Of a stretch of DNA of 64,000 nt, positions 39,700 through 46,521 are shown in pieces. The stretch's first letter is position 1; the number at the start of each line of letters is the position of its first letter. This DNA is from Candidatus Eremiobacteraceae bacterium (GTDB lineage Bacteria > Vulcanimicrobiota > Vulcanimicrobiia > Eremiobacterales > Eremiobacteraceae): assembly GCA_035710745.1 (NCBI GenBank), contig DASTCX010000013.1:62001-126000 (forward strand), given 5' to 3'. Below the pieces are notes generated by a model, which was not told where the DNA came from, did not search any database, and saw only the letters and a program-made list of their open reading frames with translations. Made by a program: the position numbers and the translations under genes.

Positions 39700-39703
39700 C
39701 ACT

Positions 39704-39777
39704 CGCGCTCGGAGGGATTCGAACCCCCGACCTCCAGATTCGTAGTCTGGCATTCTATCCAACTGAACTACGAGCGC
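39704..39777 (-). tRNA. tRNA-Arg(ACG)
   Basis: Acceptor GCGCTCG/CGAGCGC; anticodon stem CCAGA/TCTGG around CTACGAA, anticodon ACG, the substrate of TadA for wobble inosine. No CCA encoded. Confidence 0.96.
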
Positions 39778-39794
39778 GCGCTATTTTGGATCGG

Positions 39795-39890
39795 TGGCGG
39801 AGAGAGAGGGATTCGAACCCTCGATAGCGCCTTTATAGCACTATAACGGTTTAGCAAACCGCCGCCTTCAGCCAGCTCGGCCATCTCTCC
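39795..39890 (-). tRNA. tRNA-Ser(GCT)
   Basis: Acceptor GGAGAGA/TCTCTCC; anticodon loop contains GCT in TTGCTAA; very long variable arm typical of Ser. CCA encoded at 39797-39795. Confidence 0.95.
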
Positions 39891-39939: not shown

Positions 39940-41103
39940 TCATTCGACGACGAGGTTCTCCAACATCGTCGCGACCGCACCGGCTGCGTGCGGGAGCGCC
40001 ATTCGCCGAGCGTTTTGCGCCATCCGCTGCATTCGGATCGGCTCCGCCAAGAGACGATCGAGTACGTCTATGAGATCGCGCGACGTCTGCGCGCGAACGC
40101 CGATGCCGCTCTCCTGCAGATATCGCGCGTTGCGCTCTTCTTGGCCGGGCAGCGGACGAAGCATGACCATCGGCAGACCCGCGGCGAGCGCTTCCGAACT
40201 CGTCAGCCCGCCGGGCTTGCTCACGAGCACGTCCGCGGCGCGCATGTAATCGTAGACGTTCGGTACGAATCCCGCGACCGTCACATCTTTTCGCATACGC
40301 CGCGCCGCATCGGCGAGCCGCTGCTCGAGCCGCGAGTTCTTGCCGACGACGACGACCGTCTGCACGTCGTGCCGCAGCGAATCGATGCGCGCCAGAGCCT
40401 TCTCGAGCGGCCCGATGCCGAGGCCGCCGCCCATGAGCAACAGCGTCGTCTTATGCGGGTCGACGCCGATCGCGCGCCGCGCTTCGGCCTTCGTCTGATG
40501 CCCGCCGAAACGGCCGTCGATCGGGATGCCCGTGACCTCGACCCGATCCGGCGTGACGCCGTGGGTGATGAGCGCCTGCCGCATCTCCGCCGTCGCGACG
40601 GCGTAGCCGTCGATGTTCCGATGGATCCAAAACGGGTGGACGACGAAATCGGTGACGATGCCGACGACCGGAGGCGCGTCGGCGAACTCGCGCTTGTATT
40701 CCGACATGACGCCGCACGGGAACGCGTGCGTGCACACGACGACATCCGGAGCGAGCGCAGAGACGTACTGGCGCAAGTTGAGCGCCGTATAGTGGTGGAG
40801 CCACGACTTGAACGCGGACACCTTCGTCGCGCGCTCGGCTTGGTCGTAGATATATTTGTACAGCTGCGGCAGCAGCTTCACCATGCCGATGTAGCCGTTG
40901 CTCGCGACGCGGTGGAAGACGTGCGATGCATACCGGTACGAGTCGACGACCTCGCTCCTCGCGTTCGGGAGTTTGTCCGCCAACGCACTGCGGACGGCGC
41001 ACGCCGCCGCGGTGTGGCCCTCTCCGACGCTTGCAGACAGGAAGAGGATGTTGCGCGTCGCCTTCGCTCTTGCGGAGCGCGCCTCGTCGACCTGGATGAC
41101 TAT
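39940..41103 (-). CDS. UgtP/MGDG-synthase-like glycosyltransferase with apparent ATA start
   Basis: 387 residues if initiated at ATA 41103. The family is GT28-type diacylglycerol glycosyltransferase, making membrane glycolipids from UDP-sugar. The conserved first block NILFLSASVGEGHTAAA (about residues 20-36) lies upstream of the only canonical start (TTG 40983), and no ATG, GTG or TTG occurs between the in-frame stop near 41235 and that TTG. ATA overlaps the DUF1292 stop TAG (ATAG) and a GGAGG sits 10 bases before it, as in ordinary coupled starts here. Later motifs: VVVCTHAFPCGVMSEY, VVGIVTDFVVHPFW, LLLMGGGLGIGPLEK, ADVLVSKPGGLTSSEALAAG. Starting at TTG would delete the N-domain Gly-rich loop. 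Confidence 0.85.
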   Translation of the reverse strand: MVIQVDEARSARAKATRNILFLSASVGEGHTAAACAVRSALADKLPNARSEVVDSYRYASHVFHRVASNGYIGMVKLLPQLYKYIYDQAERATKVSAFKSWLHHYTALNLRQYVSALAPDVVVCTHAFPCGVMSEYKREFADAPPVVGIVTDFVVHPFWIHRNIDGYAVATAEMRQALITHGVTPDRVEVTGIPIDGRFGGHQTKAEARRAIGVDPHKTTLLLMGGGLGIGPLEKALARIDSLRHDVQTVVVVGKNSRLEQRLADAARRMRKDVTVAGFVPNVYDYMRAADVLVSKPGGLTSSEALAAGLPMVMLRPLPGQEERNARYLQESGIGVRAQTSRDLIDVLDRLLAEPIRMQRMAQNARRMALPHAAGAVATMLENLVVE

Positions 41104-41447
41104 GAGCCGTCGTCCTCCGTGTCCGTCGCTTGGTCGAGGAAATCGCCGAGTATCTCTTGCGCGAGCTGGTCGTCCTCGAGCAGCTCGCCGTTCTCGCTCG
41201 TCACGATGAACTCGTCGGCTCGTTCACTATAGCACACCGCGTACTGCGTCGCGGATTGCGCGTCTTCGACGATGCCGACGACTTCGAATTCGTAATGCTC
41301 CGCGGGCGCCCCGGCGGGTGCCGTCTGCGGGCGCGTCTCGAGCACGATCCGATCTTGCAGCTCGATGCGCGTCGCCCGACTTTCGTTACCGCTCTCGATG
41401 CTCAAACCGGCGCGCTCTCCTCTGGGGCACTTCCCGGGACCGCTCAT
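41100..41447 (-). CDS. DUF1292 family protein (YrzB-like)
   Basis: 115 residues. After an Arg/Gly/Ser-rich N-terminal 30 residues comes the DUF1292 core: HYEFEVVGIVEDAQSATQYA, VCYSERADEFIVTSENGE, LLEDDQLAQEILGDFLDQ. The C terminus is acidic (DTEDDGS). DUF1292 proteins (B. subtilis YrzB) are encoded between yqgF and mltG or near alaS in Firmicutes; role unknown. Here it follows mltG by 48 bases and its stop is fused with the ATA start of the glycosyltransferase. A TTG at codon 15 with an AGAGGAG before it is a possible later start that would remove the poor N terminus. Confidence 0.75.
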   Translation of the reverse strand: MSGPGKCPRGERAGLSIESGNESRATRIELQDRIVLETRPQTAPAGAPAEHYEFEVVGIVEDAQSATQYAVCYSERADEFIVTSENGELLEDDQLAQEILGDFLDQATDTEDDGS

Positions 41448-45575: not shown

Positions 45576-45947
45576 TCACCGCCCCGCCAGTCTCAAGAGC
45601 ACGGCGCCGCCGTACAGATAGATTCCCGCGGCGACCGCCATCAAACTCGCGATGAGCACCGCGCCGGCGCCCGCGTGTTTCGCCGCACGGGCCAGCGGAT
45701 GATCGTCCGGCTGGACGAGATCGACGATATGCTCGAGGCTCGTGTTGAACAATTCCGCGGCGAGCACGAGACCTATCGCGGCGCAGAGCACGAGCCAGTG
45801 GATCGCGTCGAAACGGAGCAGCGCAGCGAGCCCGATCGCCACGACGGCGAGCCCGAGCTGCCTTCGAAAATTCGGCTGGTCGACAAACGCTTGCCGGATC
45901 CCGTCGATCGCATCGGCGAACGCGTTCGCGAAGCTCCGTTTAGCGAT
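45576..45947 (-). CDS. dgkA: Diacylglycerol/undecaprenol kinase DgkA with apparent ATC start
   Basis: 123 residues if initiated at ATC 45947. Three-helix kinase that phosphorylates diacylglycerol or undecaprenol. The only canonical start is GTG 45842, which would delete the first 35 residues, including the amphipathic start SFANAFADAIDGIRQAF and the NFRRQL turn that open this family. No ATG, GTG or TTG lies between an upstream in-frame TAA and that GTG. GGAGG lies 6 bases before the second of two ATC codons, inside the end of ybeY. Active-site spacing E65-x2-N68-x3-E72-x3-D76 (AAELFNTSLEHIVDLV) matches E. coli E69/N72/E76/D80. The residue aligned with E. coli E28 appears to be Gln24 (DQPNFR). 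Confidence 0.85.
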   Translation of the reverse strand: MAKRSFANAFADAIDGIRQAFVDQPNFRRQLGLAVVAIGLAALLRFDAIHWLVLCAAIGLVLAAELFNTSLEHIVDLVQPDDHPLARAAKHAGAGAVLIASLMAVAAGIYLYGGAVLLRLAGR

Positions 45948-46521
45948 GATCGTCCTCCGCTGTGAGATCTCGCATTAGCCGGCGCGTCAGACCGTGCATG
46001 CGCGCCGCCTCGCGGCGCTCGTGATGGTCGTATCCGCACAGATGGAGCGTGCCGTGCACGATCAGACGCTGCATCTCTTCGATGAGCGGCGCGCCGTACG
46101 CGCGCGCTTGACGCCGCGCGGTCTCCACCGACACGACGACGTCGCCAAAAGGCTCGCCCGCGCTGAGTCCGTCGTCGACGTCGAACGACAACACATCGGT
46201 CGCGCTATCTTTGGCGCGATATCGCTTGTTCAAGCGCCGGATCTCTTTGTCACCGGTCAATATGACGGCGACCTCTCCGACGATATGCGGTGCCGCCTTC
46301 CTCAGCGTCGCGATCACCGCGGCCTTGAGCGGCTTGACGTCGATCCGCCATCTTGCCGCACCGCGCACCGCAGCAGTTGGCGTCGTCTTCGCCTTGGCGC
46401 GAGGGGAGTCGCCTTCGCGGGCACGCGGCGATTCGGGAAATACTTGCCTTCCGCCGCTGTCTTCGGCCGCTTTCGCGGCCTCAGAACGCCCGCTTAAGGC
46501 GACCCCCTCGCGCCACGGCAT
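45940..46521 (-). CDS. ybeY: Endoribonuclease YbeY, with unusual N-terminal extension
   Basis: 193 residues from ATG 46521 just after the phoH stop; 142 residues if started at GTG 46368 (VRGAARWRIDVKPLKAAV), which fits normal YbeY better. YbeY is a zinc endoribonuclease for 16S rRNA maturation and ribosome quality control. The core is complete: VAVILTGDKEIRRLNKRYRA, KDSATDVLSFDVDDG, GDVVVSVETARRQA, and the zinc motif HGTLHLCGYDHHERREAARM. The extra N-terminal 50 residues (SGRSEAAKAAEDSGG etc.) overlap an inverted repeat at 46396-46514 and have no family match. Upstream phoH, downstream dgkA with coupled translation. Confidence 0.9.
   Translation of the reverse strand: MPWREGVALSGRSEAAKAAEDSGGRQVFPESPRAREGDSPRAKAKTTPTAAVRGAARWRIDVKPLKAAVIATLRKAAPHIVGEVAVILTGDKEIRRLNKRYRAKDSATDVLSFDVDDGLSAGEPFGDVVVSVETARRQARAYGAPLIEEMQRLIVHGTLHLCGYDHHERREAARMHGLTRRLMRDLTAEDDHR
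46396..46514. repeat. 119-bp inverted repeat element in the ybeY 5' region
   Basis: Arms of about 26 bases (46396-46421 and 46489-46514) with near-perfect complementarity around GGCGCGAGGGG and GTCGCCTT, differing at three positions. The centre holds a second palindrome GGCCGC/GCGGCC near 46465-46480. Translated in the N-terminal extension of YbeY. No target duplication identified. Confidence 0.6.

Follow-up and report, generated by a model that had tools for sequence, protein, structure and literature searches.

A putative weak start codon on the stop of the preceding gene is kept in a UgtP-like glycosyltransferase of Eremiobacteria

Introduction

Where does translation of a gene start if its reading frame holds no canonical start codon ahead of a conserved part of the protein? 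This question is raised by a glycosyltransferase gene on the minus strand of a 64,000-nucleotide stretch of DNA from a Candidatus Eremiobacteraceae genome (hereafter the window). The first-pass annotation had proposed that the gene starts at AUA, on the stop codon of the gene that precedes it. To our knowledge, weak AUN starts have otherwise been described in no more than a handful of bacterial genes, among them that of initiation factor 3 (IF3). A literature search on start codons of Eremiobacterota or of UgtP found nothing relevant.

Results

The enzyme and its conserved N-terminal block

Read from AUA, the gene occupies positions 39940–41103 (minus strand), with 387 codons and a TGA stop at 39942–39940. 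From the ATA onward, the open frame matches the Pfam model MGDG_synth (PF06925) with 118.5 bits against a cut-off of 25. It also matches the NCBIfam model PRK13609 (diglucosyl diacylglycerol synthase) with an E-value of 6e-73 and 245.9 bits, which is under the equivalog cut-off of 500, and we describe the predicted enzyme as UgtP-like, its identity as UgtP lying below that threshold. The nearest solved structures by sequence are the UgtP-type 9wde, a processive diacylglycerol beta-glucosyltransferase, and Arabidopsis MGD1 (4wyi). Both B. subtilis UgtP (9wde) and MGD1 belong to the same sequence family as the window enzyme, the N-terminal GxGH block included. A homologue was matched in 100 of 101 relatives, some of the matches being only distant, as in all eight genomes listed for genus g22. 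Directly after the enzyme gene lie tRNA-Arg (acg) and tRNA-Ser (gct) (39703–39890, minus strand).

The conserved block of the enzyme stands upstream of TTG 40983 (NILFLSASVGEGHTAAA). At 41005–41052 (minus strand) it reads NILFLSASVGEGHTAA and holds a histidine that aligns with H155 of MGD1. No variation was seen among 13 relatives at residues L20, F21, L22, S23, A24, V26, G27, G29, H30, A33, A34, A36 and V37. Aligned with 9wde, whose N terminus lies at the same block, NILFLSASVGEGHTAAAC starts a few residues past the N terminus of the structure (MNTNKRVLILTANYGNGH in that family; aligned part). The block histidine aligns with the GGGH histidine of MGD1. We equate the latter with H155, described as the catalytic base, because T151 and R156 are named as its neighbours (PMC7419546).

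The start codon in the window

In the frame of the glycosyltransferase, the nearest upstream stop is TGA 41226–41224 (minus strand); the first-pass annotation was right that such a stop exists, but had placed it near 41235. Its statement that no ATG, GTG or TTG occurs between this stop and the TTG at 40981–40983 was confirmed by direct reading of the frame. Upstream of 41040, the frame holds the near-cognate codons ATA 41103, ATC 41097 and ATC 41049, the last of which lies within the conserved block. The ATA (41103–41101) and the TAG stop of the preceding gene (41102–41100) together form ATAG, and a GGAGG Shine-Dalgarno motif (41114–41118, minus strand) lies 10 nt 5' of the ATA, both as first reported. 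The motif is carried by the 3' end of the preceding gene (41100–41447, minus strand), which encodes a small acidic protein and runs from ATG 41447 to the TAG.

Since the conserved block with its putative catalytic histidine lies before TTG 40983, we reject this codon as the start and regard it as internal to the protein. It is the first ATG, GTG or TTG of the open frame, and hence the choice of gene callers limited to these codons. A real truncated protein starting there would, however, lack the block, including the histidine that aligns with the catalytic base of MGD1. An error in the assembly, a draft of 41 contigs, would be another way to explain the missing start codon, but ten further genomes of the family carry the same ATA. 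Truncation or assembly error is therefore hardly credible as an explanation of the locus.

Conservation within the family of the window genome

Comparison of the junction in relatives, as the first-pass annotation had suggested, placed ATA at the same position in these ten genomes. They comprise the sister genome in the same genus (CRAIB_MAG119) and nine more species of the family, which excludes chance and sequencing error. Within this family (f1), the distance from ATA to the block is exactly 18 codons in L001, L005–L008, L010, L012–L015 and L084. Locus L011 has ATC at this position, and L009 has GTG there, with an ATA four codons further up that overlaps its own upstream stop. The codons following the start read x-[LIV]-[QED]-[LIVA]. 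In the first five of them, codon positions 1, 2 and 3 had diverged by 0.50, 0.21 and 0.59, respectively, which is the pattern expected of a coding sequence. The remaining linker showed no codon-position bias, and its length is kept. Several members of the family have GTG at the first codon of the block, without a Shine-Dalgarno motif of its own by eye.

On sequence grounds, initiation at AUA on the upstream stop is strongly supported by the conserved position, by the Shine-Dalgarno spacing and by the loss of the catalytic block that would otherwise follow.

Start codons across the class

Among the 91 distinct orthologues of the class, 62 lack a canonical start in the stretch from the upstream stop to the conserved block. 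The candidates in this interval were AUN only in 47 orthologues, CUG only in 8, neither of these nor a canonical codon in 7, AUN together with a canonical codon in 11, and a canonical codon only in 18, a tally that leaves out canonical codons at the first codon of the block itself. Judged from this comparison, the window gene is one case of a class-wide pattern in Eremiobacteria, which are uncultured bacteria of soil. The weak start is not indispensable, because 18 species are canonical and 11 carry both types. At least nine changes between canonical and non-canonical starts are required on a tree of the 91 proteins.

In the large family f2, the common junction is cTAATTcgc or cTGATTcgc, in which ATT or ATC shares one base with the upstream stop. 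Read from AUN, the protein would begin M-R-V-L-F-L-S-A-[NS]-V-G-V-G-H. Across the class, the AUN codon is found at Shine-Dalgarno spacing and is kept between species. At five loci (L010, L011, L022, L030 and L033), an in-frame stop lies immediately 5' of the AUN codon, so that the start cannot be further upstream. Junctions without canonical, AUN or CUG codons include L031, L046, L055, L076, L083 and L123, which have GTT or GCC at the usual place or GTA overlapping the stop.

In other families of the phylum, most homologues start with ATG, GTG or TTG and are not preceded by such an upstream gene; L276 is ambiguous. As a separate observation, L275, from another class of the phylum, has a possible ATA start (GCG ATA GCT AAG CGG GTG) behind an unrelated upstream gene.

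Shine-Dalgarno pairing and codon choice

We scored the best pairing with the 16S tail within 3–11 nt upstream of each codon. The median was -8.7 kcal/mol at AUN candidates, compared with -3.05 kcal/mol at canonical starts and -2.5 kcal/mol at random positions of the same loci, using the assumed usual tail CACCUCCUUU, which may differ in these genomes. A pairing of -7 kcal/mol was reached by 83% of the AUN candidates, 0% of the canonical starts and 4% of the random positions. The mean pairing energy peaked 6–9 nt upstream of AUN; another 12 nt upstream, still within the same coding region, it was close to background. Hence, the signal is not merely a product of the acidic tail of the upstream protein.

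At the junctions of family f2, the ratio ATT:ATC:ATA was 26:13:1, against 273:921:50 for internal isoleucine codons of the same genes, with shared ancestry left in. This comparison bears on the idea that the upstream protein and the enzyme are fused by frameshift or stop readthrough, the AUN codon being an internal isoleucine. The enzyme is in the -1 frame relative to the upstream gene in most species, and ATT and ATC replace each other as isoleucine codons would. However, ATT exceeds ATC at the junction, which is the opposite of internal isoleucine codons. Moreover, the frame relation varies and is 0 at the five loci with an in-frame stop before AUN, the codon before the stop varies without a slippery run (by inspection), the Shine-Dalgarno spacing fits initiation, and the junction of some relatives carries ATG, GTG or TTG. 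We consider such a fusion highly improbable. Frameshift or readthrough fusion, a start at TTG 40983 and sequencing error were thus rejected on frame variation, block loss and the conserved ATA, respectively.

The upstream gene and the overlap of stop and start

The small acidic protein precedes the enzyme in nearly all members of the class and has a conserved core EFEVVG...DEFIVTD...LAQEIL. Its initial label as a DUF1292 protein was not borne out, as a search of the window genome with the DUF1292 model PF06949 was empty at E≤10. Three family members scanned to E≤5 likewise gave no DUF1292 match, and the protein has no match in Pfam or NCBIfam.

Overlap or abutment with the upstream stop was found in 46 of the 47 AUN-only candidates versus 6 of the 18 canonical starts. 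For all non-canonical versus canonical starts, the association was strong in a Fisher test with shared ancestry left in (p 1e-6), and stood at about 3 to 0, which is not significant, in phylogenetically independent pairs. The overlap pattern fits termination-reinitiation that would feed ribosomes to a weak start, short of proof.

The non-canonical codons could also arise without any selection for weakness, if reinitiation were tolerant of the start codon, so that a terminated ribosome would restart on any codon overlapping the stop and the codon would be left to drift. The association of non-canonical starts with overlap agrees with this, as do the seven species without canonical, AUN or CUG codons, of which three have GTT and one has GCC at the usual position. 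Yet the codons are not random: AUN occupies 40 of the 51 junctions in f2 and ATG only three, although it is one base change away (shared ancestry left in), and infC uses the same codons without sharing the junction. We regard tolerant reinitiation with drift as possible but doubtful. It seems quite improbable that a strong Shine-Dalgarno motif would serve any stop-overlapping codon (AUU, AUC, AUA, CUG, even GUU or GCC), with the class fixing the ratio of enzyme to upstream protein by tolerant coupling.

Weak starts in infC, dgkA and other genes

The first-pass annotation had pointed to infC, and inspection showed that its start is indeed non-canonical: AUU in the window genome (L282), and AUA, AUU or AUC in those genomes of the class that were read (L167–L196, L283–L301). 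IF3 itself looks complete. Because infC starts with AUU, AUA or AUC, autoregulation of IF3 via a weak infC start looks conserved in Eremiobacteria. For the same reason, the earlier hint at IF3 is consistent for the glycosyltransferase, and IF3 control of this enzyme appears plausible, if speculative.

A second lipid gene, dgkA (45576–45950, minus strand), had been paired with the glycosyltransferase in a proposed rule of weak starts in lipid metabolism. It has no canonical start before GTG 45842, and ATC 45950 or 45947 lies closely after CGGAGG. Only in the window genome and its sister (L197, L198) does dgkA lack a canonical start ahead of its conserved N terminus. ATG or GTG occupies this place in all 11 remaining members of the family that we read, and dgkA was dropped as a second case. 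The rule does not hold, as the AUC of dgkA is limited to the genus and weak starts also occur in the unrelated genes prfA, pyrC and priA of a different Eremiobacteria genus.

Around the window, only the glycosyltransferase and dgkA stood out among 51 genes, which were surveyed by homology only, since a third-position filter kept 22 genes in genomes that are too diverged. In a genus of f2 (G028/G019), for which 300–400 kb of two species were compared, about 5 of 237 conserved genes had no canonical start in both species: the glycosyltransferase, prfA, pyrC, priA and one unnamed gene. Candidate starts in some genera of f2 were CUG directly after an in-frame stop in prfA (L302, L307, L314, L318), AUU in pyrC (L362–L364), and AUU or AUC in priA (L332–L335, L340, L344, L348, L355). 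These three genes were dropped as a class-wide set of weak starts, since their starts in most genera are canonical.

If start selection were generally lenient in the class, with the enzyme gene as one case, this would be in line with these 5 or so genes in the f2 genus. None of 82 genes lacked a canonical start in a genus from a different class of the phylum, although the difference is not significant. Against it, prfA, pyrC and priA have canonical starts in most genera while the weak starts of the enzyme and infC persist class-wide, and IF3 looks complete. We consider general leniency unlikely.

Discussion

It is likely that the glycosyltransferase is held at a low level by a maintained weak AUN start that is coupled to termination at the upstream stop. 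Comparison between genomes establishes the predicted start site, its conservation, the Shine-Dalgarno spacing and the overlap. Translation of the window gene would start at AUA 41103, which the strong Shine-Dalgarno motif at the end of the preceding gene would turn into an initiation site. As the AUA lies on the preceding stop, ribosomes finishing the upstream gene may supply initiation, a form of translational coupling that we infer from the arrangement. By keeping the start weak (AUU, AUC, AUA, sometimes CUG), the class would hold enzyme output low and tied to translation of the upstream gene. Selection for weakness is suggested by the fact that one base change gives TAATG or TGATG, yet these are rarely seen. 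The weak start probably also makes the enzyme sensitive to IF3, as with infC, and one may speculate on an IF3 feedback on membrane glycolipid synthesis.

AUU starts have precedents in infC and pcnB of E. coli (PMC9410913). Like the enzyme of Eremiobacteria, these genes have an AUN start, which there limits translation, whereas the present case concerns a glycolipid-type glycosyltransferase whose start codon lies on the preceding stop and is known by sequence comparison. In S. aureus, AUA and AUU starts of ccpN, cvfC1 and citZ gave about 10% of the output of AUG in poor medium, and such starts are conserved and accompanied by a strong Shine-Dalgarno motif (PMC13009471). The likeness extends to ccpN (AUA), cvfC1 (AUU) and infC (AUA), which combine conserved non-canonical starts with strong Shine-Dalgarno pairing. 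The S. aureus starts were measured by ribosome profiling and reporters, whereas the start in Eremiobacteria is predicted by comparison, belongs to another gene and overlaps the upstream stop. The geometry is that of the ATGA, TAATG and TGATG overlaps of coupled bacterial genes, with AUA, AUU or AUC in place of AUG. The abundance of B. subtilis UgtP is controlled by nutrients through Clp proteolysis (PMC5889556).

Starts at AUN are very rare, and evolution disfavours them: one reconstruction found a single switch to AUU among 61,358 ancestral AUG starts (PMC5622118). In most of the roughly 90 species of the class, this enzyme appears to keep such a start, on the preceding stop. Gene calling restricted to ATG, GTG and TTG would remove the catalytic N terminus of the enzyme class-wide. 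The natural series of AUU, AUC, AUA, CUG, AUG and GUG starts, with and without overlap, may suit the study of the interplay between termination-reinitiation and discrimination by IF3.
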